From positions 102,853 through 166,852 of IMG/VR virus record IMGVR_UViG_3300020057_000496: a stretch of DNA of 64,000 bases. One strand, 5' to 3'. The notes beneath the pieces are model-generated. The model did not search any database. It was not told the DNA's origin and was given only the letters and a program-made list of their open reading frames with translations. Positions 1 through 30,052 of the stretch are shown piece by piece. Both the position numbers and the translations under genes were made by a program. This stretch comes from a virus. The stretch's first letter is position 1. Each line of letters opens with the position of its first letter.

Positions 1-199
1 CGCTAAGCTTCGCCCTGGATTCGGACGTTCTATCATCTATGTAATAAAGAACAGATCTGAGTGTGGCACTATCGGTAAGATAGAATTAGCATTTGATATG
101 AACGCCCAGAAATATATCGACCGACTTGGAAATGAGCTTGACTTTATACCAGAAATGGACGAGGATATAGCTCCAGTCAATGAAGAAGAGTTTAGATAA
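1..199 (+). CDS. Replicative DNA helicase, DnaB-like, C-terminal fragment
   Basis: Open frame from base 2 to the TAA at 197-199; the start lies left of the window. The roughly 65 visible residues contain GFGRSIIYVIKNR followed by GTIGKIELAFD. This matches the end of the DnaB/SF4 RecA-fold helicase domain, where a K-x-R segment precedes a G-T-x-x-L-x-F strand. It would be the ring helicase unwinding phage DNA ahead of the fork. Its last 20 bases overlap the next gene, so the two are probably co-translated. The catalytic Walker motifs lie outside the window, so a related RecA-fold ATPase cannot be excluded. Confidence 0.55.
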   Translation, partial: AKLRPGFGRSIIYVIKNRSECGTIGKIELAFDMNAQKYIDRLGNELDFIPEMDEDIAPVNEEEFR

Positions 200-785
200 G
201 CCACTCAATATTGCAACGATGAAGCTCCCGGCCGATGTGCTGGAGTTCGGGCTTACCCTTAGAAAACTAAGGACGGCTGCTGGGCTTACCTGTCAGCACG
301 TTGCTGACGCTGGCTGGGTCCGTGAGGCTTCGGTCCGGAAGATGGAAGCGGGAATGAAACTCCCGGCAGCACCGTCCACCCTGCGGATGATCGAAAGGGA
401 ATTGAACTGTAAGCCGGAGTACTTAGTTTCACTAGCAGAGCAACACCGGAAGTATCTGGCTCAGTTCATTGAACTCTTTAGCTCTACCCTGATCGAGTTA
501 CATGACCTTCTCAGGTTTTACCAACCGGACGAAGCCGAGAAGGTTCTTTTACAGATTGTGAATACTTGGAAATTTCAAAGAAAGGAGGAGCAAACAGTAA
601 TGAAGTCAACGGCAACCCCACGTCCGCTCGTAGCCCCGAAGGCTGCGCCGACGCGCAAGACGACCACGAAGTCCGCGCCTGCACGACGCAGCACGACAAT
701 GGCCACGGCGAAGACCGCAGCGAAGACCGCAGCGAAGACCGCAACGAAGACCGCACTGAATCTCGCACTGAAGCGCAGCAAGTAA
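180..785 (+). CDS. XRE-type helix-turn-helix protein with histone-H1-like basic tail
   Basis: 201 aa, ATG start inside the end of the helicase gene. Residues about 24-80 form an XRE/Cro-like helix-turn-helix (LRKLRTAAGLTCQHVADAG, then SVRKMEAG). A helical middle part follows (about 85-135). Residues from about 140 are Lys/Ala/Thr/Pro-rich with tandem AAKT units, like a histone H1 or HU-type DNA-compaction tail. The last 220 bases overlap a second open frame. An internal in-frame ATG at 600 with a strong ribosome site could release the basic tail alone. Probable role: DNA-binding regulator or nucleoid-like protein (inferred). Confidence 0.7.
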   Translation: MKKSLDKPLNIATMKLPADVLEFGLTLRKLRTAAGLTCQHVADAGWVREASVRKMEAGMKLPAAPSTLRMIERELNCKPEYLVSLAEQHRKYLAQFIELFSSTLIELHDLLRFYQPDEAEKVLLQIVNTWKFQRKEEQTVMKSTATPRPLVAPKAAPTRKTTTKSAPARRSTTMATAKTAAKTAAKTATKTALNLALKRSK

Positions 786-1580: not shown

Positions 1581-2438
1581 ATGAAGGTAGTCGTTACTCG
1601 CGGATTGCCTGGCTCTGGGAAGTCGTGTTTCGCAAAGGAACTGATAGACTCCGACAAGAGCTACGTACGCGTCAACCGGGACGAGATACGCCTGACACTC
1701 TATAACGGAAAGTTTTCTGCGAAGAACGAAGAGCTTACGACTGCCGTTCGGGACTCCATGATTGACGCCGCGCTCCTCTCCGGTCGCAACGTCGTCGTGG
1801 ACGAAACTGCGCTGTCCCCGTCGGTCATGGCGACACTCAAGCTTAAGGCAGAGGCACACGGGGCGGAATTCGAAATCAAGGAATTCAACAAGCCGTACGA
1901 AGACTGCATCCGTGACGACTTGACTCGCGCCAATCCAGTCGGCCACAAGGTGATTACGAGGATGTACCTGAAGTACATCAAGCCAAAAGAAAAGAAGCTC
2001 TATGAACAGACTGAAGGACTACCTTCCGCTATCCTCGTGGATATCGACGGCACGGTCGCAAATTGCGATTCCCGCTCTCCGTTTGACACGAATGCTTGTT
2101 TACAGGACAGACCTAATAATCATGTTATTAGCGCGGTGGTTTCATTAAGCCGTGATCACCGAGTCTTTTTTATAACCGGACGAGACGAGCGCTTCCGAGA
2201 AAAGACCACTACTTGGATCAAGCGGCACGTCTTCCCTGGCGACTACTGGTTTAAGTTACACATGCGCGCGGACGCCGACAAGCGCAAGGACTACGAAGTC
2301 AAGGAAGAGATTATCGTCAACGAGATCATAGGGCGCTATAACGTCCTCGTATGCTTCGAGGACCGTCCGCGCAATCTCAGGATGATGCGCCGACTCGGCT
2401 TGTCTACAATGGACTGCGGACTGGGGTTTGAATTCTAA
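1581..2438 (+). CDS. pseT: Polynucleotide 5'-kinase / 3'-phosphatase (T4 Pnkp family)
   Basis: 285 aa, near the 301 aa of T4 Pnkp. The N-terminal kinase has P-loop GLPGSGKS (residues 8-15) and the NRDEIR segment. The C-terminal HAD phosphatase has motif VDIDGTVA (153-160), FFITGRDE and CFEDRP. It heals RNA or DNA breaks by phosphorylating 5'-OH ends and removing 3' or 2',3'-cyclic phosphate. Its stop overlaps the start of the RNA ligase gene by 1 nt, reproducing the T4 kinase plus Rnl1 pair that repairs tRNA cut by anticodon nucleases. Family assignment is firm; the tRNA-repair role is inferred from T4. Confidence 0.93.
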   Translation: MKVVVTRGLPGSGKSCFAKELIDSDKSYVRVNRDEIRLTLYNGKFSAKNEELTTAVRDSMIDAALLSGRNVVVDETALSPSVMATLKLKAEAHGAEFEIKEFNKPYEDCIRDDLTRANPVGHKVITRMYLKYIKPKEKKLYEQTEGLPSAILVDIDGTVANCDSRSPFDTNACLQDRPNNHVISAVVSLSRDHRVFFITGRDERFREKTTTWIKRHVFPGDYWFKLHMRADADKRKDYEVKEEIIVNEIIGRYNVLVCFEDRPRNLRMMRRLGLSTMDCGLGFEF

Positions 2439-3508
2439 TGGACTGCCATCTCCAGGACTATCTACGTAACGGCGGATCGCTTACTAATCTCGAAGAAGTA
2501 CTTCGCGTCAAGCACAAGCGGCACGGGACATATCCAAACCTCTTACTGTTCTCTTACTCTATCGGCTGTTCGTTCGAATTCCCACTACAGTTAGAGTCAC
2601 GCGGAATCATTCTCGACGAACAAGACGACTGGCGCGTAGTCAGTCGCAGCTTTGACAAATTCTTCAACCTCGGCGAAGGCAGGGCCACAGCTATCGACTG
2701 GGCCAGTATAGTAGTAAACGAAAAGCAAGACGGCTCGCTCGTGAGTGTATATAGACACAACGGAAACTTGCAATTCGCGACTACGGGGACACCGGACGCC
2801 AACTGCCCAATTGGCGACTATCAGGTGACGTTCGCGGAATTGTTCCGGCAGACGCTGCAAGAGCTTAGCCTCTGGCCACTTCCGGAGATGCCCGGCGTAA
2901 CTCTCTTGTTCGAGTTGTGCACGCCGCTGAATAGGGTCGTCGTCAACTCCTTGACGAATAAGGTGTTCTTTCTTGGGGCAAGAGAAGCCGAGACTGGATG
3001 CTGGCTATCTAATGACCTACCGGAGTTCAGTCACCTCCCAAAGCCACGCATATTTTCATTTCGAACACGAGAAGAAGTGCTGGCCTCACTCGAACATTTC
3101 AGTGGGCTCCATCAAGAAGGTTACGTCGTTACCGACGCTAATTACAACAGAGTAAAGATCAAGCACCCCGAATACGTCCAGTTACACCACTCGGTTTTTG
3201 GTACGACTTATTCGAGCATCGTCGAGCTTGCCCTAAAGCAGGAGTCATCCGAGATCCTAGCTCATTTCCCGGACTTAACAAAGCTGCTCAAGGACACTGA
3301 GCAGAAGATCATAAGCCTCTGTGTAACAGTCGAGAATACCTACGCCGAAATTAAAGACCTGACTACGCGTCGGGAGTTTGCACAGAGGGCGAAGTTCTAT
3401 AAGTATTCGGCCGTTCTATTTAAAATGCTAGACAAGAAGCTGTGCGCCCTGGAGGTCCTGAGACTGGAACGAATTAAGACCGTAATTGAATACCTCAAGG
3501 AGAACTAA
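2438..3508 (+). CDS. rnlA: RNA ligase 1 (T4 Rnl1 family)
   Basis: 356 aa versus 374 in T4. Nucleotidyltransferase motif I is EKQDGSLV with the adenylated Lys at residue 96. It is preceded by SRGIILDE and SRSFDKFFNLGE, both hallmarks of Rnl1. Motif IV is EGYVV (227-231) and motif V is VKIKH (239-243). The enzyme seals 3'-OH and 5'-phosphate RNA ends using ATP. The C-terminal quarter is helical and would correspond to the tRNA-binding domain of Rnl1. Coupled to the kinase gene upstream and to the next gene by 1-nt overlaps. Confidence 0.93.
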   Translation: MDCHLQDYLRNGGSLTNLEEVLRVKHKRHGTYPNLLLFSYSIGCSFEFPLQLESRGIILDEQDDWRVVSRSFDKFFNLGEGRATAIDWASIVVNEKQDGSLVSVYRHNGNLQFATTGTPDANCPIGDYQVTFAELFRQTLQELSLWPLPEMPGVTLLFELCTPLNRVVVNSLTNKVFFLGAREAETGCWLSNDLPEFSHLPKPRIFSFRTREEVLASLEHFSGLHQEGYVVTDANYNRVKIKHPEYVQLHHSVFGTTYSSIVELALKQESSEILAHFPDLTKLLKDTEQKIISLCVTVENTYAEIKDLTTRREFAQRAKFYKYSAVLFKMLDKKLCALEVLRLERIKTVIEYLKEN

Positions 3509-4014
3509 TGGAAGAGAACAATCGGTCTATATATCTACAGCGTAAAGACGGTCTCTTTGTTGTAAAATTCTTCCGTCAAAAGCATGAATACTACGTTGGG
3601 GCCTTCAAGGATATCAACGTAGCCCGTGTCGAACGGGACAGGGCGTACCTAAAGCTGAAGTGCGGGGATCTTTCCGGAATCAAGGTTCGCGAGTCCGTAA
3701 AGCGCAAAGTCTTCTCCGAAGAGCAGTGGTACAAGCAGTACCTGGAGTACCCGTTATATATGGATACTCCGCAGTATAAGCTCCGTTATGCCGTATTAAT
3801 TTCGGCGTTACGGGATTTCTGCGATACCGCTCGGATAGGCAAGTACACAAAGGCCCAACACTGGATCATGGAATCGTCACATCCGGACGACACCTTCTCC
3901 TTCGTCAATGTCTGCGAACTCTTCCATCTCAGCCCTGCGGCGGTAAGAAAGCAACTAAATGGACTTAATCAAAAGCAAAAGCAAGCACTCAAGTCGTATA
4001 CGATCTTTAACTAA
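3508..4014 (+). CDS. Putative AP2-like DNA-binding protein
   Basis: 168 aa. Residues about 6-52 (IYLQRKDGLFVVKF, YYVGAFKDINVARVERDRAY) resemble the AP2 fold: beta strands, a G-x-F turn, then a helix rich in Ala/Arg. This domain is common in phage homing endonucleases and regulators. The middle is Tyr/Arg-rich without a known motif, and the last 40 residues (VCELFHLSPAAVRKQLNGL) look like a helix-turn-helix. No HNH catalytic residues are seen, so it is called DNA-binding only. It overlaps the next gene by 56 nt. Confidence 0.45.
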   Translation: MEENNRSIYLQRKDGLFVVKFFRQKHEYYVGAFKDINVARVERDRAYLKLKCGDLSGIKVRESVKRKVFSEEQWYKQYLEYPLYMDTPQYKLRYAVLISALRDFCDTARIGKYTKAQHWIMESSHPDDTFSFVNVCELFHLSPAAVRKQLNGLNQKQKQALKSYTIFN

Positions 4015-4282
4015 GACACAGAATCTTATTGTTAAAGAATGCGACTCTATACGTGATCTTCTATTAGAAAAAAACCGTAGTTACGGCGATTCATTTTCAA
4101 GGCCAATTGGAATATTCGCTGCCGGTCACGATGCCGATGTGCAAATTAGGGTCCGAATTGATGACAAGCTGGCCCGCATCTCGCGCGGAACTGAGTATTC
4201 AAATGAAGACACGATCACGGACCTTATTGGATACTTGATATTATTGCGCCTCCTTGTAAACGTGAAAAAGAAAAAACATTAG
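3959..4282 (+). CDS. Nucleotide-modification-associated domain 1 protein (DUF1599-like)
   Basis: 107 aa. The core CDSIRDLLLEKNRSYGDSF, followed by QIRVRIDDKLARI and a helix EDTITDLIGYLILL, matches the small all-helical DUF1599/NMAD1 family. That family is frequent in phages near nucleotide-metabolism and base-modification genes. Its biochemical role is not firmly known. The start overlaps the previous gene; an ATG at 3959 is used. A 165-nt spacer without a recognisable gene follows (4283-4447), with two copies of TATCTCGT. Confidence 0.7.
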   Translation: MDLIKSKSKHSSRIRSLTKTQNLIVKECDSIRDLLLEKNRSYGDSFSRPIGIFAAGHDADVQIRVRIDDKLARISRGTEYSNEDTITDLIGYLILLRLLVNVKKKKH

Positions 4283-4447
4283 TATCTCGTGCAGTACATG
4301 GGCGGCAAGGTCAGGTTAATTAAAAGATCAGCAAGCGAGCTTCCGTAATTGCGTCCTTCCCGCACAAAACTGAAATGCGTACTCCAACTTCGAAAAATCA
4401 AACAAGTAGAGTCGAGAACCTGTATCTCGTAAGGTAGGCAAAATTTA

Positions 4448-5422
4448 ATGAGCAATAGCACACATGACGTCGTAGTATACAAACTAGGTCCCGTTACCGA
4501 GCACCCGGCCGCCGACCAAATCGAGATCCACCACGTCTGGAATTACGTCTGCATCTCCCAGAAGGGTCTCTATAAAGAAGGAGACTTAGTTGCGTTTATT
4601 CCGCCGGACAACGTCGTCCCAGACATCGAACAGTACGCCTGGCTAAGTGGCAAGCGGCGAATTAGGGCAAAGAAGATTCGTGGCATAGTGTCGTACGGGT
4701 TGCTGGTCGCCGCACCGGAAGGTTCGATTGAAGGGGACGTAGTCACTGAGCAGCTCGGAGTCGCACATTACGAGCCGCCAATATTAACATCCAATGGAGG
4801 TGGTTTCAGTCAGGCTAAGCCACCGCCCGGCTACTATGCCAAGTACGACATAGATTCCCTTCAGCGATACGCGGACTGCCTTGAGCCGGGCGAGGAAGTA
4901 TGGATTACCGAAAAGCTCCACGGATGTTGCTTTTCTGCGATCTATATCGACGGAGCCCTGCACGTCCAGTCACATAATTTCTGGCGCAAGGAGGACGACG
5001 ACAACGTATTCTGGCCGGCACTCCGGAACACTCCGGGCCTAGCGGAGTGGCTAGAAGAGCATCCGGGAACTCTACTACAGGGAGAAGTAGTCCCGACCGC
5101 ACGTGTCGCCAAGACAGTCTTCGACTACGGGTACACCTGGGGGACTCCGCGAGTCGTGTTGTTCGATATGTCCCAAGACGGTTCTTACTTCTCACACGAG
5201 GTGGCGCGAGGACTTAGCAAGGACCTGACTTGGGTGCCTACTATTGGCCGCGAGGCGTTCTCGTTGGAGCGAGCGGAGGAGCTGACAACTGGGCCGAGTC
5301 TTATGCCAGGTGCAAATCATCTCAGAGAGGGCCTTGTTCTCACGCCGGTCAATGAGCGCATGCACGACCGCATAGGACGAATTAAACTAAAGCTCGTATC
5401 GCACAAGTACCTAGAACTTTAA
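4448..5422 (+). CDS. RNA ligase, DRB0094 / Rnl5 family
   Basis: 324 aa. An N-terminal OB-like domain (about 1-110, with GLYKEGDLVAFIPPD) precedes an adenylyltransferase domain. This order is typical of the Deinococcus DRB0094 RNA ligase, in which the OB domain comes first. Motif I is TEKLHG with Lys156; EGLVL (294-298) fits motif IV and RIKLKL fits motif V. Such ligases seal 3'-OH/5'-phosphate ends and can join RNA ends in nicked duplexes. It is a second, unrelated RNA ligase within 2 kb of the Rnl1 gene, which suggests different substrates. Confidence 0.88.
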   Translation: MSNSTHDVVVYKLGPVTEHPAADQIEIHHVWNYVCISQKGLYKEGDLVAFIPPDNVVPDIEQYAWLSGKRRIRAKKIRGIVSYGLLVAAPEGSIEGDVVTEQLGVAHYEPPILTSNGGGFSQAKPPPGYYAKYDIDSLQRYADCLEPGEEVWITEKLHGCCFSAIYIDGALHVQSHNFWRKEDDDNVFWPALRNTPGLAEWLEEHPGTLLQGEVVPTARVAKTVFDYGYTWGTPRVVLFDMSQDGSYFSHEVARGLSKDLTWVPTIGREAFSLERAEELTTGPSLMPGANHLREGLVLTPVNERMHDRIGRIKLKLVSHKYLEL

Positions 5423-5458
5423 TAGCCCGCAACACGCCTGACGGCGCCTGGGGATACT

Positions 5459-5779
5459 ATGACGAAAAAGATAAAATTCCTTATCGAAGTTGAATACGTA
5501 CTGGATAAATGGGACCCGAAACAGAAAGACAAGGACTGGATTCCGGACTACGCCCTTGACCTCCGTGAGCGCTGTGACATGGTGATTGAATTCCCATGTA
5601 GCGAAGTAATGGACGCCGGGCGCGAGCTAGGCCACACCGGTGCGACCTATGACTATCTCGACGTCAGTTACTGTCGCGACCTGGGCTACCCCTCGAAGAT
5701 CAAGGTTCGCCGTGTTAAGACCCCAGCGCCGCGCCGTAAGCCAACGCCCGGGGTGGCAAAGCGTAAGGCCAAGAATTAA
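5459..5779 (+). CDS. Conserved hypothetical with basic C-terminus
   Basis: 106 aa, ATG start. Alternating beta-type N-terminus (MTKKIKFLIEVEYVLDKW), an acidic middle and a basic Pro/Lys/Arg tail from residue 85 (TPAPRRKPTPGVAKRKAKN) that may bind nucleic acid. The family is not recognised. It is separated by one base from the next gene's GTG start. Confidence 0.6.
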   Translation: MTKKIKFLIEVEYVLDKWDPKQKDKDWIPDYALDLRERCDMVIEFPCSEVMDAGRELGHTGATYDYLDVSYCRDLGYPSKIKVRRVKTPAPRRKPTPGVAKRKAKN

Positions 5780-5780
5780 C

Positions 5781-6206
5781 GTGATCTTTCTCGGTGGAAC
5801 TTGCGGCAACAACGACTGGCGCAATCGTCTCTTTACGGACTTAAATAGGGCGCAAGTAAATACGGACAACCTCTACAACCCAGTAGTGCCCGACTGGACT
5901 TCTGTCGCACAGGCAAGCGAAGAGAAGGCAAAGGCGAGTGCTGAGTATTGTGTTTTCTATATTGCCAACCCTCGCTTAGATGGCGTCAATATTTCTGCTT
6001 TCTCAATGGTTGAGGCAACGATGGCACTCTACGACAGTCCAGACACGACTGTCGTGGTGTTCGACGAAGACGGGATAGAAGGACACGTACTTAAGGCGAT
6101 GCAGCGGACACGTCAGGTTCTACAGGCTCGATTCCCTACCGTCGAGTTCTTGAGTTCGTATCAAGCACTAGTAGATTACTTGATCGTAATGGCAGTCAAG
6201 AACTAA
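5781..6206 (+). CDS. Nucleoside 2-deoxyribosyltransferase-like protein
   Basis: 141 aa from GTG 5781, chosen because family similarity begins exactly there (IFLGGTCGNNDWRNRLF) and the frame upstream overlaps another gene. The GGT...WR motif, a central NPVVPDW loop, an acidic SAEYCVFYIANP segment and FSMVEATMAL fit the deoxyribosyltransferase-like Rossmann fold (Nuc_deoxyrib_tr_2). This fold cleaves or exchanges nucleobases on deoxynucleosides. Together with the NMAD1 protein it hints at nucleotide salvage or modification. Stop and next ATG overlap by one base. Confidence 0.65.
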   Translation: MIFLGGTCGNNDWRNRLFTDLNRAQVNTDNLYNPVVPDWTSVAQASEEKAKASAEYCVFYIANPRLDGVNISAFSMVEATMALYDSPDTTVVVFDEDGIEGHVLKAMQRTRQVLQARFPTVEFLSSYQALVDYLIVMAVKN

Positions 6207-7363
6207 TGCCGACGTTGCTCTTTAAGAAGGGTTCGAATGGGAAAATTATCCAGTGGCGAAACTGGGTAATTGGTGCCGAACTCCAGACCGAACACGGCCA
6301 AGTCGGAGGCAAGTTGCAGCTTACCTCTGAGGTGTTTTTCGCAGGGAAGAATATCGCCAAGTCAAACGCGACCACGGCCGAAGAGCAGGCCGAGCTGGAG
6401 GCGCAGGCGCGCTGGACGAAGAAGAAGAAATCCGGCTATGTCGTTTCACTAACAGAAGCTAGAGCTGGCGGACGTGACGTGGTGATCCAGGGGGGCGTTG
6501 ACCCGATGTTGGCACAGTCTTACTCGAAACACGCCGCAAAGATCAAGTGGCCGGCTTACAGTCAACCCAAACTCGACGGAATTAGATGTCTGGCGTTACT
6601 CACCGAAAAAGGTGACGTAACGCTGTGGTCACGGACTCGAAAGCCTATCAAGTCGATGCCTCACGTGATCAAGGCGCTCAAGGGCCTGCACGTCAAGGCA
6701 GGTACCGTCCTGGACGGCGAGTTATATTCGCATGCGGCCTGGAATGCTGTCGCCGACGAAGCCGAGGACTCGGAGTCGGCCCATAAAGTCTTGTTCGAAA
6801 AGATAACAAGCCTGGTGCGTCCGCTTGAGCCAGTACCGGGCCACGAAATTATGGAATACCACGTCTACGACATGTGTGTAGATCTACCTTTCGAACAACG
6901 ACATTGGAATTTAGCCAGGCTACTAAGGAAGGCAACCCTGCCGCTCGTCCTAGTCGAGACCTTACATTGCGAGTCCGAGCCCGACGGCGTGTCTCACTAC
7001 GGGGACTGTCTTACGCGTGGTTACGAGGGTGCGATGTTCAGGAATGCCGACTCAACCTACGAATTCGGCAAGCGCAGTTATTCGCTCCAGAAGGTCAAGC
7101 AGTTCGATGACGCCGAATACGAGATTACCGGAGTAATGGAAGGGCGTGGTAAACTTGCCGGGTGTGCGGGCTCCATGGAGTGCAGGTTGCCGAACGGAGG
7201 GGTGTTCAATGTCAAGATGAAGGGCTCCTTCGAAAGATTGCGGGAGTTCTTCCAGCATCCGCCGGTGGGAAAACTACTCACGGTGCAGTACCAAAACTTA
7301 ACGGCAGCCGGTGTACCTAGATTCCCCATTGGACTAAAGATTCTACAGGACAAGGACTACTAA
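6206..7363 (+). CDS. ATP-dependent DNA ligase
   Basis: 385 aa. The N-terminal 95 residues resemble a WGR-type domain (IIQWRNWVIGAELQTEHGQVGG), and the adenylation domain follows. Motif I is QPKLDGIRC with Lys122, then LDGEL, a YDMCVD segment, YEGAMFR (motif IV) and LQKVKQF (motif V). An OB domain ends the protein. It seals nicks in duplex DNA during phage replication. WGR plus ligase fusion is known in phages and some bacteria. Third nucleic-acid ligase in this region. Confidence 0.88.
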   Translation: MPTLLFKKGSNGKIIQWRNWVIGAELQTEHGQVGGKLQLTSEVFFAGKNIAKSNATTAEEQAELEAQARWTKKKKSGYVVSLTEARAGGRDVVIQGGVDPMLAQSYSKHAAKIKWPAYSQPKLDGIRCLALLTEKGDVTLWSRTRKPIKSMPHVIKALKGLHVKAGTVLDGELYSHAAWNAVADEAEDSESAHKVLFEKITSLVRPLEPVPGHEIMEYHVYDMCVDLPFEQRHWNLARLLRKATLPLVLVETLHCESEPDGVSHYGDCLTRGYEGAMFRNADSTYEFGKRSYSLQKVKQFDDAEYEITGVMEGRGKLAGCAGSMECRLPNGGVFNVKMKGSFERLREFFQHPPVGKLLTVQYQNLTAAGVPRFPIGLKILQDKDY

Positions 7364-8111: not shown

Positions 8112-8187
8112 GCCACAACGCAAAGAGGCCACCCGGAGGCGACCTTTCTACAGGCATACGATTTCAGCGTTGCCCTTTACTGAGAGT

Positions 8188-8261
8188 AGAAATGGACAGG
8201 ATTCGAACCTGCATCAATACCGTAATATGGTACCAGCCTTGACCAATTAGGCTACCATTTC
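8188..8261 (-). tRNA. tRNA, anticodon reads ATT (Asn type)
   Basis: On the minus strand GAAATGG pairs with CCATTTC as a perfect 7-bp acceptor. The D-arm is GCCT-AATTGGTCA-AGGC, and the T-arm GCAGG-TTCGAAT-CCTGT is canonical. The anticodon stem GTACC/GGTAT encloses ATATTAC: T33 then ATT then A37. A34 in an Asn-type anticodon is unusual, since GTT is normal. Two bases instead of one separate D and anticodon stems. Length about 73 nt. Confidence 0.65.
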
Positions 8262-8269
8262 TATCCAAG

Positions 8270-8419: not shown

Positions 8420-8498
8420 AAAGCGAGGCGACACCGGCGTTTCACCGAGACCTTTCGGCCTTGTCCCTCTCTAGAACTGTAGCCTGCCGACACTCTAA
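8420..8498 (-). ncRNA. Structured RNA candidate between tRNAs, possibly a decayed tRNA
   Basis: On the minus strand a D-arm-like GTTC-TAGAGAG-GGAC is followed by AGGCC-GAAA-GGTCT (5 bp, GNRA tetraloop) and CGGTG-AAA-CGCCG. GCAGGC and GCCTCGC at the ends can pair around one bulge. The arrangement mimics a cloverleaf, but both the anticodon and T arms have tiny loops. No known ribozyme consensus was found; CTGATGA, for example, is absent. It may be a decayed tRNA or a small structured RNA. Confidence 0.3.
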
Positions 8499-8579
8499 CT
8501 TCGGCAGCATGAGTCGAACATGCACCACTTTCTTTCTTCTTTTTAAGAAAGAATCGCTCTACCGTTGAGCTATACCGGA
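8499..8579 (-). tRNA. tRNA-like gene with enlarged anticodon/variable region
   Basis: Acceptor TCCGGTA pairs with TGCCGAA (one C-A mismatch and one wobble). D-arm GCTC-AACGGTA-GAGC and T-arm GCATG-TTCGACT-CATGC are canonical. The region between is 31 nt of T/C then A/G. It can fold as TTCTT-TCTTAAA-AAGAA, with positions 34-36 reading TTA but C at 33, plus a 13-nt variable loop. It can also fold as a 9-bp stem TTCTTTCTT/AAGAAAGAA. The isotype cannot be fixed. Confidence 0.45.
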
Positions 8580-8668
8580 GCAAGGACAGATTGGCCGTTT
8601 CTTAACAGAAAGTCAACTATTTTATTTCGAACAAACAAAATAAATCATTCGAGCTTTCGGCCACTTGT

Positions 8669-9166
8669 GTGTCAGACTGGTGTCTACCTAATTACGACTC
8701 AACAGGGGGCCATATCGCAACATACGTTTCAAGTGCAACGTCATTCTTGACGCAGACCGGGAGCCTAGCTTTTTCTAAGCTGCGGGACGGGATCAAGGTC
8801 GATGTCCTGACACAACGCGGAACCTGGAAGCCGGGCACGGTCCGGAGCGTCGGGCGTCGGCCCATGTCGGACCTTACCTTCGTAGCCTCCGACGGAGACT
8901 CGATGGTAATACAGGCGACTGCCGGGTCCAAGTGGCTCCTGGCCGACGACAGTATTTCTTTCGTTCTGGGCCCAGGTGACTTCGTGAAATCCTTACGGCT
9001 CAAGGTCTTTACTGGGGACGAGGTTCTGTTTGTTTTAGAGAACGAAATGTGGCAGCTCCGGGAGGTCAGCGAGCCTCGGACGCGTGACGCCTGGACCATT
9101 GAACTGGCCGAAGACTTCTTCTTCGTCGCGACCGGCAACATCGTTATCGGTGGGAGCGCCAGGTGA
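8669..9166 (+). CDS. Stand-alone Hint (intein-like) protein, catalytic residues lost
   Basis: 165 aa from GTG 8669. Residues about 30-75 (GSLAFSKLRDGIKVDVLT, GTWKPGTVRSVGRRPMSDL) match the start of Hint domains seen in ribonucleotide-reductase inteins. Block B appears as QATAGSKWLL, where the usual His after T-x-x is Ser. The end, FFVATGNIVIGG, aligns with the intein C-terminal block, but the His-Asn pair is replaced by Gly-Gly. No endonuclease is present. It is not fused to any extein. Splicing is therefore unlikely; it may be a captured mini-intein. It overlaps the next Hint gene by 4 nt. Confidence 0.6.
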   Translation: MSDWCLPNYDSTGGHIATYVSSATSFLTQTGSLAFSKLRDGIKVDVLTQRGTWKPGTVRSVGRRPMSDLTFVASDGDSMVIQATAGSKWLLADDSISFVLGPGDFVKSLRLKVFTGDEVLFVLENEMWQLREVSEPRTRDAWTIELAEDFFFVATGNIVIGGSAR

Positions 9167-10161
9167 TTCATTCTTCCTCTTACGTTCTTACGAGCAAGGG
9201 GCTGCGGCGAGCAGGCGACATCCGTGACGCGGAGGTCGTCACGTTTGACGAGAAGGGGGTTTCACTTACTTTAATCACCGAACCACGCCCTTTGTATAGG
9301 GAAGGCAATTTACTTACACTCGTGACCAGTGACGGCCACGAGCTTCTTTGTAGTGGCCTAATCAAAATCAAGACGCCGTTCGGGTTCATAGCGGGGACCG
9401 ACCTGGCGGCAGGGGACCGCGTAAGCCTCCAGCCACGAGAGGGCAACTTTGGTGAAGCTAGCTTACTACACAACGACTGCGAGACTGGGCTCATTTTGGG
9501 ACTACTAGCAAGGGGGACAGTCAGCGCCAAGGATACGCTGGCGCTTTTCGGTACCTCTTCTTTTATTGATCCTGAAGAAGCGCGGGCGGCAGTGGCCAGT
9601 CTTACGGCACTCTCTGGACCTGTAGAGTTGTTCGAAAAGAATATTGACCAGATTGGCGGAAGTAAGCTTTTCTATTGGCTTGCCGACTACGTCAGTCACC
9701 CCGAGTTAATCCTCGACCAAGTGATTGAGCCCGTCATGAGTGGTTCGATTGAGGCAACGCTCTGTTACCTCGCTGCGCTATTCGCGGACCCTGACCTCAA
9801 GGCAGAGCGACTGGGCGAACAGATCTCGGTTTACTCCTTGAAGACGCACACCTTCGCTAGGCAGGTCCAGCTCTTACTACTTAATCACGGGATTCTTTCT
9901 AGTGTCCATGGAAAAGTTGTCTACATGGACATGAAATCTTTTTCTTCTTTAATTGGCAAAATCGCCAGATACGGCCGGACCTTTTCTTACAGCGACAAGC
10001 TCTGGGCGATGTTAGATCCGTTTTTCAATCAACAGCGGGCTTTCTTCTCCACTGTTAGGTCTGTTAAAACTAGTCAGATGAGTTCCGCGCCGGACTCGTC
10101 GGGAATATACGCCATATCAAGTCAACCATATATAGCTAACGGACTTATTGTCCAGGAATAG
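9163..10161 (+). CDS. Second stand-alone Hint protein with endonuclease-like insert
   Basis: 332 aa from GTG 9163 (GTGA overlap). Block A-like start SSSYVLTSKGLRRAGDI; block B-like LTLVTSDGHELLCSGL lacks the T-x-x-H motif. GLILGLLARGTVS (about 107-119) resembles the first LAGLIDADG helix but lacks the acidic residue. The C-terminus GIYAISSQPYIANGLIVQE is clearly an intein C-block with the final Asn replaced by Glu, followed directly by a stop. It looks like a full intein that has lost its exteins and activity, lying 6 bases before the ribonucleotide reductase gene. Confidence 0.65.
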   Translation: MIHSSSYVLTSKGLRRAGDIRDAEVVTFDEKGVSLTLITEPRPLYREGNLLTLVTSDGHELLCSGLIKIKTPFGFIAGTDLAAGDRVSLQPREGNFGEASLLHNDCETGLILGLLARGTVSAKDTLALFGTSSFIDPEEARAAVASLTALSGPVELFEKNIDQIGGSKLFYWLADYVSHPELILDQVIEPVMSGSIEATLCYLAALFADPDLKAERLGEQISVYSLKTHTFARQVQLLLLNHGILSSVHGKVVYMDMKSFSSLIGKIARYGRTFSYSDKLWAMLDPFFNQQRAFFSTVRSVKTSQMSSAPDSSGIYAISSQPYIANGLIVQE

Positions 10162-10167
10162 CAACGC

Positions 10168-12090
10168 ATGTCAAATATTCTCACCGACGCTTTTCTCGCC
10201 AAGTACGCTACTAAGGCCCCACCGTTCGGTGGCTCCGGCTTGGGCCAGTTCGTTGCTAATCGTACTTACGCCCGCCTCAAGGCGGACGGAACAAAAGAGC
10301 ACTGGAGGGAAACTATCGCTAGGTGCGTGAATGGTGCCCAAACGATTGGTGCAGAGTTCACCGAAGACGAAGCTATGGCGCTTTTCGATCACATGTTCAA
10401 TCTGCGCGGCCTAGTTGCTGGGCGTTGCCTGTGGCAACTAGGCGTAGATAACATGATCGAAAGATTCGGTTTTGGCAGCCTAGTGAACTGTTATTATACA
10501 AATATCGAATCGATTGATGATATTAGGTACTTATTTACTATGTTAACCTTAGGTGGCGGGGTCGGCGTAGGAATAAAGCGCGCCATGATCCACGAGTTCC
10601 CTAAAGTCAAGCATAATGTTACTATCTCGCACGAACGAACTAACGATGCCTCGTTTATAGTACCTGACAGCCGTGAGGGTTGGGCAGAACTCCTAGTCAA
10701 GACACTTGAGTCTTATTTTTTTACCGGTAAGTCATTTACATACTCGACTATCTTAGTGCGTCCTCCTGGGTCAAAACTTGCCAGCTTTGGTGGTCGCGCC
10801 TCTGGCCCGCAAGCTTTAATTGATGGCATTAAGGATATTTGCAATCTACTGGACGGTCGTGCTGGCAAAAAGATTCGCAGCATTGATTCTTTAGATATAG
10901 TAAATATTATTGGGCGAGTTGCCGTTGCCGGGTCTTCCCGGCGTAGCGCTATTTTAGCGATTGGCGATACGGACGATTACAGTTATTTACGCGCGAAGAA
11001 CTGGGCCGCTGGTAAGATTCCGGCATGGAGGTCCCAGTCTAATAATAGCGTAGCTGCCGATAGTTACGACCAGATTGTAGAAGAGTTATGGAAGGGATAT
11101 ACGGGAGACTCTGAGCCGTACGGCTTAGTAAATCTAGAATTAGCAAAAAAGTACGGTCGCCTAGGCGAACTAAGACCAGATCCAAACATTGAAGGTTTTA
11201 ACCCCTGCGCGGAGCAGGCACTAGAGAGTCGTGGGTGTTGCAATCTATCTACCGTATTCCTGCCACTAATTTCGTCGCGCGACCAATTCTTTGAGGTGTC
11301 CAGATTACTCTTTAAGGTCCAAAAAGCAATCACGCGCCTACATCATGTAGACAAAGAGACCGAAGAGATTACCCACAAGACTCGTCGAGTGGGTCAGTCT
11401 ATTACTGGCTGGATGCAATTAACATCAGAGCAGTTATCGTGGATTAGCCCTGCATATTCTCATCTCAGAGAATACGACAAGTCACTCTCGGCTCAATGGG
11501 GTATTAATCAATCAATTCGCATTAGTACTTGTCAACCGTCTGGAACCATGTCCCTTTTGCCGTTCGTAACTCCGGGAGTACACCCGGCGTATGCAACTCA
11601 CTTTATTCGGAGAGTCAGACTCGCTGCCGACGACAACCTCGTTCAACAGGCCAGTAAGAATGGCTACGAAGTAGAATACGAAATTCAACTTGACGGTAGT
11701 AAAAACCACAATATCTGTATCGTTAATTTCCCCTGCGAAATGCCAAGCCATGCCGTGACTAGTAATCAACTATCGGCGATTGGTCAACTAAACTGGCTCG
11801 TAAGGGTAAATACCGACTGGAGTGATTCGGCCGTCTCGTCTACCGTTTATTACAAGCGAGAAGAACTTGAGGAAATCAAGGCTTGGTTAAGGGATAATTA
11901 CGAATCTAAGATCAAGGCAGTTTCTTTTTTACTGCACCAGGACCATGGCTTTGCGCAACCACCTTACGAAGAGATCTCGCGAGAGCAGTTCACGAAGATG
12001 TCTTCTCAAATTACCAGTACTAGCTTCGACGACGAAGGATCAGAGGAAATCGATCTAGAGTGTGCCGGCGGGCACTGTCCGATTAAATAA
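10168..12090 (+). CDS. nrdJ: Class II (adenosylcobalamin-dependent) ribonucleoside-triphosphate reductase
   Basis: 640 aa, shorter than the 739-aa Lactobacillus monomeric enzyme. The active-site motif NPCAEQ has the radical Cys at 347, with Asn and Glu in the expected N-x-C-x-E spacing. The redox-pair Cys residues are in LVNCYYTN (C108) and RGCCNLST. QPSGTMSLLPFVTPGVHPAY is the phosphate-binding loop. The C-terminal shuttle is ECAGGHCPIK. It makes dNTPs for phage DNA using B12, without oxygen. Two inactive Hint proteins lie directly upstream, but the reductase itself carries no intein. Confidence 0.93.
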   Translation: MSNILTDAFLAKYATKAPPFGGSGLGQFVANRTYARLKADGTKEHWRETIARCVNGAQTIGAEFTEDEAMALFDHMFNLRGLVAGRCLWQLGVDNMIERFGFGSLVNCYYTNIESIDDIRYLFTMLTLGGGVGVGIKRAMIHEFPKVKHNVTISHERTNDASFIVPDSREGWAELLVKTLESYFFTGKSFTYSTILVRPPGSKLASFGGRASGPQALIDGIKDICNLLDGRAGKKIRSIDSLDIVNIIGRVAVAGSSRRSAILAIGDTDDYSYLRAKNWAAGKIPAWRSQSNNSVAADSYDQIVEELWKGYTGDSEPYGLVNLELAKKYGRLGELRPDPNIEGFNPCAEQALESRGCCNLSTVFLPLISSRDQFFEVSRLLFKVQKAITRLHHVDKETEEITHKTRRVGQSITGWMQLTSEQLSWISPAYSHLREYDKSLSAQWGINQSIRISTCQPSGTMSLLPFVTPGVHPAYATHFIRRVRLAADDNLVQQASKNGYEVEYEIQLDGSKNHNICIVNFPCEMPSHAVTSNQLSAIGQLNWLVRVNTDWSDSAVSSTVYYKREELEEIKAWLRDNYESKIKAVSFLLHQDHGFAQPPYEEISREQFTKMSSQITSTSFDDEGSEEIDLECAGGHCPIK

Positions 12091-12127: not shown

Positions 12128-12337
12128 ATGCTATACCATATAATAACTTCATATACTTGTGGGGATTGTTATCAAAGAAATATAAGTTGGTCCGCCGAGG
12201 AGTACGAAAGAGAACAAAGAGAACCAAGTTCAACATTCACCGTCTGCACCCACGACTCAACTGGTATACATTTCGGAGAAGAAATCTGCCCCTGGTATGC
12301 TGTAAACAAAGAGATTGATGAAGGATATGACATTTAA
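12128..12337 (+). CDS. Small hypothetical with Cys pair
   Basis: 69 aa from ATG 12128, chosen over the upstream in-frame start because that one lies inside the reductase gene. CGDC at residues 10-13 and two further Cys (C41, C55) could bind metal. The rest is acidic and unrecognised. The last 20 bases overlap the primase-like gene. Confidence 0.5.
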   Translation: MLYHIITSYTCGDCYQRNISWSAEEYEREQREPSSTFTVCTHDSTGIHFGEEICPWYAVNKEIDEGYDI

Positions 12338-13868
12338 TAACAATAGAATGATTAACAACTTGTACCATGATCGAGCTTACCCTGCGAAGGAGGTTTCGGC
12401 TAAGGGAACTTGCGCTTACACATTCCCTTCTTTGGCGGCTGCCGAAGAGTCCGGCAGGTCCTTCATGCTTATGCCGAAGAATAATCTGATAGTTATCGAT
12501 TTCGATAGGTCGGAGCCTGCTTATAAAACTGAGCCTTACTTCATTTACCTTGACTGGCTAAAGTCTCGCGAAGTCGCTTACTTCGAATGGAACTCCGGAC
12601 GGGCCGGACACCGGCATCTCGTTGTAGCTTTCTCTACCGTTGCGTTGCAGACGGAAGCGTGGCATTACTTGAAGTCCATCAAGTTGCCGTGTCGCTGGAA
12701 CCAGTACTGTCGGCCGCCGCTCGCGCCTCACAAGCACGGCCTGAATGTCGGACTTTGTGACGGAGTAACTTTAGAAGATGTAGAAAGGGTACTTTCCGTA
12801 CAGTCGGACGGTGAGTTCGAATCCCCAAATCACTTGCTGAACAATACGGTGCGTGTCCTGCGTCCGGCTCCGCCTCGTGCCCTCAGTCAGGAGATGCAGG
12901 CTTTCCTTGTGTCCGGAGCCCCTGCCGAATCAGACCGTTCTTACTTCGTGACGAAGGTGGCGCTGGCACTCGTGAATTCCGGCTATTCTGATACGGACGG
13001 CGGTGCCGCACTGGCCAATCCGAAGAACGGAATCTCGGCACATATCCTTGACAAGCGGCGGGGGACGCAAGAACAGGCCCGTTACGGCCAGTTCTTCATG
13101 CGTAAGGCGCGGGTTTTCGCCCAGAAGAATCCAGTCCAGGTGGTTCGCTCCGAAGAAGAAACAGAACAAAACAGGAAACTTCTTTTCTTTATACAGAACC
13201 GTCCGTGGCCCGGACGTACCGGCTCAAGTGACTTGAGCACGCTGGAGGCACATCTTGGCTGCGCGTTGCGAGCCGGAAGCAAGCAGTACGGCCTCTCCGC
13301 AAGAGAACAGGAGCTGGAGTCCCGTCTAGCCCTAAAGACCTGCCTGAAGGCCAACCGGCGGCTTGTCGAGGCCGGCTGGCTCCGTCGGGTAAAGAAGGGG
13401 TCAGGGGACGAGGCTTCGGTCTGGGTGGTTGGCCTACCCTCCCACCTAGAGCAAGAGTACCACACTACCTTCCAAGAGAGAGATGCAAGAGAGTGTGGTA
13501 GATTAGCTCGCCCCGTAAAAAGCCCCGTATTCCGTGCCTTTCTCTCTGGCGGGTTGCGTGGACTCGGGCAGGCCGCAGGCAGGGTGATGCCTTACCTGGA
13601 GGCCGGAATCACCTCTACAGGGCTCCTGGCTCGCAAGACTGGGCTGTCCGTCTGGAGTGTCCGGCGGGCTTTGAAGATCCTTTCAGGGGTCGGGATGGTA
13701 AAGAGCACCTCGGAAGGGTTCGTTTTGGGTCGGGAAGTCCCGGAATTCCTGGAGAAGTCGGCTAACCGGAAGCTGGAGCTGATTTCAGCCAGGCACGTCC
13801 GCGAACGGGACGCCTGGAAGGCTGGCCGGGTCGCCCGGCAGATCGCGGAATACCGCCTCTGTGCCTAG
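12318..13868 (+). CDS. Primase-like (archaeo-eukaryotic primase fold) replication protein with winged helices
   Basis: 516 aa from ATG 12318; TTG 12315 and ATG 12327 are alternatives. NNLIVIDFDRSE (55-66) supplies a D-x-D pair and WNSGRAGHRHLVVAF (91-105) an SGR-G-x-H strand, as in AEP-superfamily primases and plasmid Rep proteins. Residues about 280-400 and 430-490 look like winged-helix domains (LEAGITSTGLLARKTGLSVW, then SVRRALKILSGVGMV). Likely role: primer synthesis or replication initiation. No helicase motif is seen. The AEP call rests on two motifs only. Confidence 0.55.
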   Translation: MKDMTFNNNRMINNLYHDRAYPAKEVSAKGTCAYTFPSLAAAEESGRSFMLMPKNNLIVIDFDRSEPAYKTEPYFIYLDWLKSREVAYFEWNSGRAGHRHLVVAFSTVALQTEAWHYLKSIKLPCRWNQYCRPPLAPHKHGLNVGLCDGVTLEDVERVLSVQSDGEFESPNHLLNNTVRVLRPAPPRALSQEMQAFLVSGAPAESDRSYFVTKVALALVNSGYSDTDGGAALANPKNGISAHILDKRRGTQEQARYGQFFMRKARVFAQKNPVQVVRSEEETEQNRKLLFFIQNRPWPGRTGSSDLSTLEAHLGCALRAGSKQYGLSAREQELESRLALKTCLKANRRLVEAGWLRRVKKGSGDEASVWVVGLPSHLEQEYHTTFQERDARECGRLARPVKSPVFRAFLSGGLRGLGQAAGRVMPYLEAGITSTGLLARKTGLSVWSVRRALKILSGVGMVKSTSEGFVLGREVPEFLEKSANRKLELISARHVRERDAWKAGRVARQIAEYRLCA

Positions 13869-28483: not shown

Positions 28484-29752
28484 ATGTCTACCAAAGTTTT
28501 TGATATCGATCCAAAGGACAATCTGCACCCAATCATGGAGGCGCTTGAAGTTATCGAGCATGCCCAGAAGGAAAGTGCAAAGAAGCAGACCGAAGTCGCC
28601 GAGACCTCGATCCGCGAAATCGAGTCCGTCAAGGGTGCCCTGGCAGAGATGAAGCAGACGTGTGAGCGTCTGGATAAGGCTCTTCCGAAGGGTTCGAAGG
28701 TTTATCAGGCATCATCGCCTGACAAGACGCGCGGCATGTACAACCTTGGCCGTTGCATTACGGAGGCATGGCGCGTCAAGCAGTACGGCCAGACTTCACG
28801 CGATTTCGCCGAACTACAACGTGATCTAAGTTCAGGCGGTGGCCAGAAGGAAACTTCTGGTTCGGCAACCGGTGACTTGCTCGTTCCGACGATCATCTAT
28901 CCGGACATTGCTCGCCTGATTGGCGAGGCTTCTATTATCCGTCGAGTGGGTACCGTCATTCCGATGAGTTCACTGACGATGAAGCTGCCAACCAAGGGCA
29001 CTGGTCCTTCGGTGTCGTGGCCCAATGAAGGTATTGCTCCGAGCCAGACGTCAGTCGTCCTGCAGGACAAGACCCTTACGGCCAAGACCATGATGGCCCT
29101 GTCTGAGATCACCTCAGAGCTTACGGAAGATTCCGTGGTCGCACTGGAGCCCTTTTTCGCTCGTCTCTTCGCAGAGGCGGTTGCGCAAGAAGAGAACCAG
29201 AAGGCATTCTCTTCGACGACTATCTTTACCGGCGTTGGAACTGACGCTGACGTTACCTTGAAGTACTTCGGTAACTCGATCAGCTCGGGCAAGCGTGCCT
29301 TCTCGGACATCACTCACCAGGACCTCGTTCGGCTACAGTTCGCTGTAGATTCGAAGGTTGTTCACAAGGGTGCGTTCGTTCTTTCTAGTGCAGCATTCTC
29401 GAACATCGTCGGAATGCGCGACACCCAGGAGCGCCCTCTCTATATGACGAGTTGGAATGCCCTGCCTGGAATCGACAATGCCCCGGATCAGGTTCTTCCT
29501 ACCCCAACACAGATCATGGGTCGCCCGGCGTATCTTACCGATACGATGCCGGGTACGTCCAGTAATGTCCAGCTCTTCGCACTCTACGCAGACTGGAGCA
29601 AGTTCGTGTTCGGCGACCGTGCCGAACTGCGAATCGACTGGTCAGACCAGGTGTTCTTCGAGTCTGGCAACCTTGCCCTGCGCGTTCGTGAGCGTATCGG
29701 CATGATCACGGCAATTCCCGGTGCATTCGCGAGACTTTCGACTGCCGTCTAA
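28484..29752 (+). CDS. Major capsid protein, HK97 fold
   Basis: 422 aa from ATG 28484, 9 bases after AAAGGAG. Residues 20-75 form the coiled-coil delta domain (IMEALEVIEHAQKESAKKQT, then IREIESVKGALAEMK), which acts as built-in scaffold and is usually removed by the protease. The fold proper starts around GDLLVPTIIYPDIARLI, with E-loop MKLPTKGTGPSVSWPNEG and the spine MMALSEITSELTEDS. Forms the icosahedral shell. Confidence 0.93.
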   Translation: MSTKVFDIDPKDNLHPIMEALEVIEHAQKESAKKQTEVAETSIREIESVKGALAEMKQTCERLDKALPKGSKVYQASSPDKTRGMYNLGRCITEAWRVKQYGQTSRDFAELQRDLSSGGGQKETSGSATGDLLVPTIIYPDIARLIGEASIIRRVGTVIPMSSLTMKLPTKGTGPSVSWPNEGIAPSQTSVVLQDKTLTAKTMMALSEITSELTEDSVVALEPFFARLFAEAVAQEENQKAFSSTTIFTGVGTDADVTLKYFGNSISSGKRAFSDITHQDLVRLQFAVDSKVVHKGAFVLSSAAFSNIVGMRDTQERPLYMTSWNALPGIDNAPDQVLPTPTQIMGRPAYLTDTMPGTSSNVQLFALYADWSKFVFGDRAELRIDWSDQVFFESGNLALRVRERIGMITAIPGAFARLSTAV

Positions 29753-29773
29753 CGCCTAGTCGGATTTAACTAA

Positions 29774-29838
29774 GAGTCGAATTACGACTCACCCCTAGAA
29801 ATGGGTTGGCTCTGGAAACGGAGTCAGCCCATTTCTTT
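29774..29838 (+). terminator. Capsid-gene terminator preceded by GAGTCG palindrome
   Basis: GAGTCG-AATTA-CGACTC (29774-29790) is followed by AGAAATGGG...CCCATTTCT (about 29798-29836), a long stem ending in TTTTA. This is a plausible rho-independent terminator after the highly expressed capsid gene. Confidence 0.75.
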
Positions 29839-29857
29839 TACAGCCCAGGAGAAATAT

Positions 29858-30007
29858 ATGATTAAACAAGAGGCGCTCGACAAGGCCCCTGCCGCGAAGG
29901 CAAAAGAAAAGAAACTCAAGCCCAAGCTGGGTAAGGTGTACGAATACGTAAAGGGGTCGTCATTCCCGGCCCGACACGGGCGGATCAGTAACGTAGTTAC
30001 TCGGTAA
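29858..30007 (+). CDS. Small basic protein
   Basis: 49 aa from ATG 29858 with CAGGAGAAATAT upstream. Lys/Ala-rich (KAPAAKAKEKKLKPKLGKVY), then FPARHGRISNVVTR. Position directly after the major capsid protein is where small head-decoration or completion proteins are often found, but no family is recognised. Confidence 0.45.
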   Translation: MIKQEALDKAPAAKAKEKKLKPKLGKVYEYVKGSSFPARHGRISNVVTR

Positions 30008-30052
30008 GAAAGAGTTTCACTTTCTGTTTGAATTGGGCTAGACTGGCGTGAC

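Follow-up and report, generated by a model that had tools for sequence, protein, structure and literature searches.

Two splicing-dead inteins upstream of an intein-free viral nrdJ are probably exapted as stand-alone proteins

The stretch of viral DNA analysed here (the window, 64,000 nucleotides, bases 102853-166852 of a virus record of 166,852 bases) carries two adjacent open reading frames, ORF1 and ORF2, directly upstream of the ribonucleotide reductase gene nrdJ (Table 1). Both resemble inteins, neither sits in a host protein and neither appears able to splice. This raises the question of why two such genes should still be open, and whether they are remains of a past insertion or have been recruited to a new function.

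The arrangement of the locus is compact, with ORF1 and ORF2 overlapping by 4 bases (GTGA) and a gap of 6 bases between ORF2 and nrdJ. The GTG of ORF1 lacks a clear ribosome-binding site and the start of this ORF is uncertain. The nrdJ product was assigned to the RTPR-type class II reductases (TIGR02505, E 1e-84, under the curated cut-off), and both of its homologous insertion sites are empty (VN|CYYTNI and NP|CAEQ). An initial annotation, made from the sequence alone, had placed two ORFs directly in front of an intein-free reductase gene, and this is borne out by the coordinates and by the class II assignment. The TAG stop of ORF2 shares its frame with the nrdJ ATG, three codons before it (10159-10170). 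Readthrough of this TAG, fusing ORF2 to nrdJ, was considered and set aside, as the virus ends other genes with TAG too and the residues needed for splicing are absent.

Table 1. Positions of the two ORFs, of nrdJ and of the other inteins of the virus (window positions unless given as genome bases)
Feature	Position	Strand	Description
ORF1	8669..9166	+	GTG start, 165 aa; splicing-dead mini-intein with leader and tail
ORF1 parts			18-residue leader; mini-intein, residues 19-162; 3-residue tail SAR
ORF1 Hint core	8723..9154	+	Tyr19 at position 1, Ser87 for block B His, Gly162 for terminal Asn (VIA and alignment)
ORF2	9163..10161	+	GTG start, 332 aa; whole LAGLIDADG-type intein, extein-free
Arg117 codon of ORF2	9511..9513	+	position of first LAGLIDADG (GDG) aspartate
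Asp209 codon of ORF2	9787..9789	+	second LAGLIDADG aspartate, retained
nrdJ	10168..12090	+	ATG start, 640 aa; class II ribonucleotide reductase without intein
Other inteins of the virus (splicing residues kept)	window 30053-32248; genome bases 28494-30437 and 30401-32776 (L022)		in a glycosyltransferase; a MoxR-like AAA ATPase (HNH type); a DUF2201/VWA protein

Other genes of the region were also recorded. Just upstream of ORF1, a tRNA-Asn (8186-8262) and a tRNA-Leu (8498-8580) lie on the minus strand amid plus-strand genes, and ARAGORN called a tRNA with an odd two-base anticodon at 1222-1294. A polynucleotide kinase, two RNA ligases and a DNA ligase are encoded near tRNA genes (1581-7363), resembling a T4-style tRNA repair set. 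Downstream of nrdJ, an uncharacterised gene (12315-13868) has weak relatives (24-25%) in the same place in loci L001 and L107.

Neither ORF had a match in Pfam, NCBIfam or PHROGs, phmmer against PDB sequences gave chance matches only, and direct tblastn against phages, IMG/VR and GTDB contigs found no close relative; the intein families were reached only by profile and alignment queries. For ORF1, tblastn of phage records gave a match to an NrdD intein from Klebsiella phage FBKp34 (two-sequence E 4e-9), and an alignment of ORF1 with four NrdD inteins reached 53 IMG/VR loci. Most ORFs of these loci are class II NrdJ split at the first active-site cysteine, (Y/F)N|C, and at least one is an NrdD (L080). 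Against an HMM of phage ribonucleotide reductase (RNR) inteins built without it, ORF1 scored E 2e-15 among 10,231 six-frame ORFs, and it aligned end to end with the mini-intein of L041 (E 2.5e-17, residues 20-162 on 2-137). The resemblance to RNR inteins that had been noted initially for this ORF could be sharpened, as ORF1 belongs to a mini-intein family located at the first active-site cysteine (N|C) of phage NrdJ and NrdD. It is a distant member, with a long branch (2.06) and a mean identity of 29% to relatives that share 53% among themselves, which also fits relaxed constraint. A likeness between the leader of ORF1, CLPNYDSTGGHIAT, and an NrdD C-extein, CLVNYQDMLENGFHIGN, was taken as chance (E 1.5 in a two-sequence comparison).

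The AlphaFold model of ORF1, made from the locus alignment (pLDDT 86.8), matched the Ssp DnaB mini-intein with a Foldseek E of 4e-8, and in the VIA comparison with solved inteins it reached Z 18.4 (rmsd 2.0 over 132 residues). VIA places residue 19 on intein residue 1 and residue 162 on the last intein residue, and the endonuclease domain is absent. Cys5 was rejected as a candidate for position 1, as this placement occurs in one alignment only and needs a 14-residue insertion, and the structural match disagrees with it.

For ORF2, tblastn gave a match to the NL|CTEI intein of LR756511 NrdA, the second in that protein, which is of one family with SPbeta BnrdE and with the inteins that Thermus phage NrdJ carries at NP|C. 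The closest relative is the second intein of the L057 NrdJ (25% over 262 residues), and the HMM of phage RNR inteins, built this time without ORF2, gave E 1.3e-11 among the 10,231 ORFs. ORF2 thus belongs to a family of LAGLIDADG inteins found at NP|C(A)E, downstream of the first-cysteine site, and the RNR likeness given initially for the first ORF only extends to the second. The AlphaFold model from the locus alignment is of middling confidence (pLDDT 66, pTM 0.72). It spans the whole TliVMA intein, including the nuclease domain (VIA Z 19.1, rmsd 4.4 over 284 residues, 1..332 on 1..371), with Z of 17-19 over the solved inteins. The ends of ORF2 are the exact boundaries of an intein, with the start codon at position 1, a stop after Glu332 and no extein residues. 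Of the two LAGLIDADG aspartates, one is replaced and one kept (Table 1), the conserved PDGxGGxK loop is missing and the PADLOC homing-endonuclease model gave only E 0.043. The nuclease part is slightly more acidic than in relatives, some of which are nearly equal, so that net charge speaks neither for nor against DNA binding.

The Hint (HINT) fold proposed for both ORFs was recovered when their predicted structures were compared with solved inteins, by VIA for both and by Foldseek for ORF1. Aligned relatives show no or almost no variation at the block B His and the C-terminal Asn; at position 1, all relatives of ORF1 and most of those of ORF2 have Cys. In ORF1, block B reads TAGS for TxxH and the residue in place of the terminal Asn is followed by Ser. 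In ORF2, the start codon occupies position 1, Ile67 replaces the block B His (SGLI for TxxH), Gln321 the block F His and Glu332 the terminal Asn. Neither protein has a nucleophile at position 1, a block B TxxH or a C-terminal Asn followed by Cys/Ser/Thr, and neither is inserted in frame in a host protein. The initial annotation had reported the block B His and terminal Asn as lost, which holds for both ORFs and can be extended to position 1; it was also right that no extein is fused to either (ORF1 has a leader of 18 residues and a tail of 3, and ORF2 has nothing on either side). In three further inteins of the same virus, Cys1, the block B His and the terminal HN are all present.

Related inteins inside nrdJ of other genomes, which the initial annotation had named as support, were found, and some NrdJ ORFs hold both kinds in the same order. 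In L044, L048, L057 and L074, a single NrdJ carries an intein at the first-cysteine site, followed after an extein stretch of about 225-230 residues by one at the NP|C site. The order of ORF1 and ORF2 is the order in these proteins, with the intervening extein shrunk to three codons (SAR) and zero codons after ORF2. L042 and L057 are among the intein-bearing proteins that lie closest in the NrdJ tree, and their inteins rank high among the matches of ORF1 and ORF2. Within the clade of the adjacent nrdJ, 99 fetched relatives gave no match to either intein profile, in a set that may favour uninterrupted genes since best matches were retained. A pattern scan of the whole IMG/VR collection for an intein end before CYYTNI (GN|CYYTNI) gave only three chance matches, outside nrdJ. 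As the clade members examined showed no first-site intein, the pair is probably derived from an older or foreign nrdJ. Direct excision from the adjacent nrdJ would be no more likely than exchange of an older nrdJ that bore the inteins, or than a separate arrival of the inteins.

Other nrdJ loci carry further combinations of inteins. In L041 (3617-8438), a split intein divides nrdJ into two halves that are separated by a GIY-YIG gene; the N-terminal half also holds a first-cysteine mini-intein, and the C-terminal half a further intein that is LAGLIDADG-like. In L076 (3710-7681), and in L077, one NrdJ ORF of 1324 aa contains at least four intein-like regions.

Although neither protein retains the splicing chemistry and at least one acidic residue of the nuclease has been lost, both genes look as if they are maintained. 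The shared order could mean that they are recent neutral relics of a deleted or replaced intein-bearing nrdJ, which are open only because too little time has elapsed. However, in a simulation of unconstrained decay, the joint probability of 0 stops in 497 codons and changes at 6 of 6 splicing positions was at most 1.4e-6 at any divergence; the simulation ignores indels, and including them would make the probability still lower. The ORF boundaries also match inteins too well for random deletion. Unconstrained decay of ORF1 and ORF2 is very unlikely, and we regard neutral relics as highly improbable.

Another explanation is that the proteins have no role and that the frames are kept open by coupling, stops being avoided only since translation or transcription of nrdJ would drop. 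The 4-base overlap and the 6-base gap agree with this, as does the finding that family members, when left to drift without stops by about 0.35 substitutions per site, end with HMM scores close to the one of ORF1. At 33% identity, such drift never gave the score of ORF1 and at 50% it did, so the HMM-score test alone cannot split selection from coupling. Codon usage speaks against coupling, in a test that is indirect. The in-frame codon scores of ORF1 (0.123) and ORF2 (0.106) lie among those of other genes of the virus (0.069-0.201; about -0.105 off frame) and were reached after drift of 0.35 substitutions per site in just 1.4% and 3% of trials, respectively, with equilibrium base composition assumed. 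A second indirect test compared residue classes: 1/9 of the splicing and cutting residues were retained and 43/79 of the other conserved positions (Fisher p 0.03, a modest value with a grouping of residues chosen by the analyst), so that splicing residues were lost more often than other conserved residues. Together, codon usage and the pattern of residue loss favour selection on the protein, and coupling is an unlikely account of the open frames. No stand-alone relatives of ORF1 or ORF2 were found in the IMG/VR, GTDB and phage searches, and the pair is known from one genome.

The initial annotation had offered either exaptation or relics left after the reductase was freed. Exaptation fits best, because neutral decay hardly gives 497 stop-free codons together with the loss of every splicing residue tested, and the second half is weaker where it concerns the present reductase, as no first-site intein was seen in the members of its clade that were examined. 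We therefore consider ORF1 and ORF2 to be two exapted, splicing-dead nrdJ inteins that now exist as separate non-splicing proteins, with a probability of roughly 0.6.

A decaying free-standing homing element would be a different end for the same inteins. Splicing would have been lost, homing beside nrdJ kept for a while, as in yeast WHO/HO, and the nuclease would have died recently. The place next to the target gene, the lack of exteins and the loss of splicing residues with the frame kept are all as in WHO elements (PMC7282813), and a LAGLIDADG-type domain with Asp209 is still there in ORF2. However, ORF1 has no endonuclease domain, so homing leaves its open frame unexplained, and both Asp117 and the PDGxGGxK loop are gone in ORF2, so its nuclease is probably not freshly dead. 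This course of events is rather doubtful.

In the exaptation reading, ORF1 and ORF2 descend from two inteins of a phage NrdJ, a mini-intein at the first-cysteine site and a LAGLIDADG intein at the NP|C site, and their exteins are gone. From their arrangement, ORF1 and ORF2 appear to be in an operon with the intein-free nrdJ and may be co-transcribed with it. The Hint fold would have been held by selection while the splicing residues went, and in their new role the proteins could be accessory or regulatory factors, without catalysis of their own, for nrdJ or NrdJ. ORF2, through its dead endonuclease part, could bind nrdJ DNA without cutting, or act as a protein scaffold, with ORF1 as a possible partner. 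A more specific and quite unlikely possibility is a guard against homing, in which ORF2 would bind, but not cut, the empty NP|C site into which its family presumably once homed; together with ORF1 it would block the nrdJ homing endonucleases of competing phages, or would repress nrdJ. If true, this would be a domesticated defence built from the parasite itself. Should protein-level selection be confirmed, the Hint fold itself has been recruited, beside its usual host gene, which bears on whether inteins are parasites only or also raw material for new proteins.

The inteins embedded in phage RNRs (NrdJ/NrdD at the first cysteine; NrdJ/NrdA/NrdE at NP|C or NL|C, with SPbeta BnrdE and Thermus phage G20c) are the sequence families of ORF1 and ORF2. 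They differ in that they lie inside the RNR, and the aligned ones keep Cys1 (Ser in few), the block B His and the terminal Asn. Fractured phage nrdJ genes with split inteins (NrdJ-1 type; L041) also have intein pieces in separate ORFs, but there each piece is joined to one half of nrdJ and trans-splicing would follow, whereas ORF1 and ORF2 have neither exteins nor splicing residues, each is a whole intein, and nrdJ is intact. An intact nuclease active site, as in free-standing phage homing endonucleases, is lacking from both.

For Lactococcus phage 949, hypothetical proteins with intein traces beside nrd genes and similarity to RIR1 inteins have been mentioned (PMC3653736), and these are likewise stand-alone phage proteins near RNR genes. 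There the traces were read as unknown endonucleases, and the passage on them does not describe catalytic loss, order or boundaries; the comparison is one of descriptions only. WhiA (PMC11701221) is a transcription factor in which a nuclease-inactive LAGLIDADG domain now serves in a regulatory protein. It has an HTH and no Hint, whereas ORF2 has a Hint and no family match for an HTH in Pfam.

A further likeness in kind is to yeast HO and WHO, stand-alone intein-derived genes without exteins that have lost motif G, with WHO beside its target gene (PMC7282813). ORF1 and ORF2 are also stand-alone, intein-derived and extein-less and have lost motif G. However, HO/WHO have an active LAGLIDADG nuclease and a C-terminal zinc finger, whereas ORF1 has no nuclease domain, ORF2 is minus one catalytic Asp and there is no CxxC in either translation. 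Here there are also two inteins of different families, in tandem and in a phage. The stand-alone intein derivatives that we found described in the open-access literature (yeast HO/WHO) retain their nuclease.
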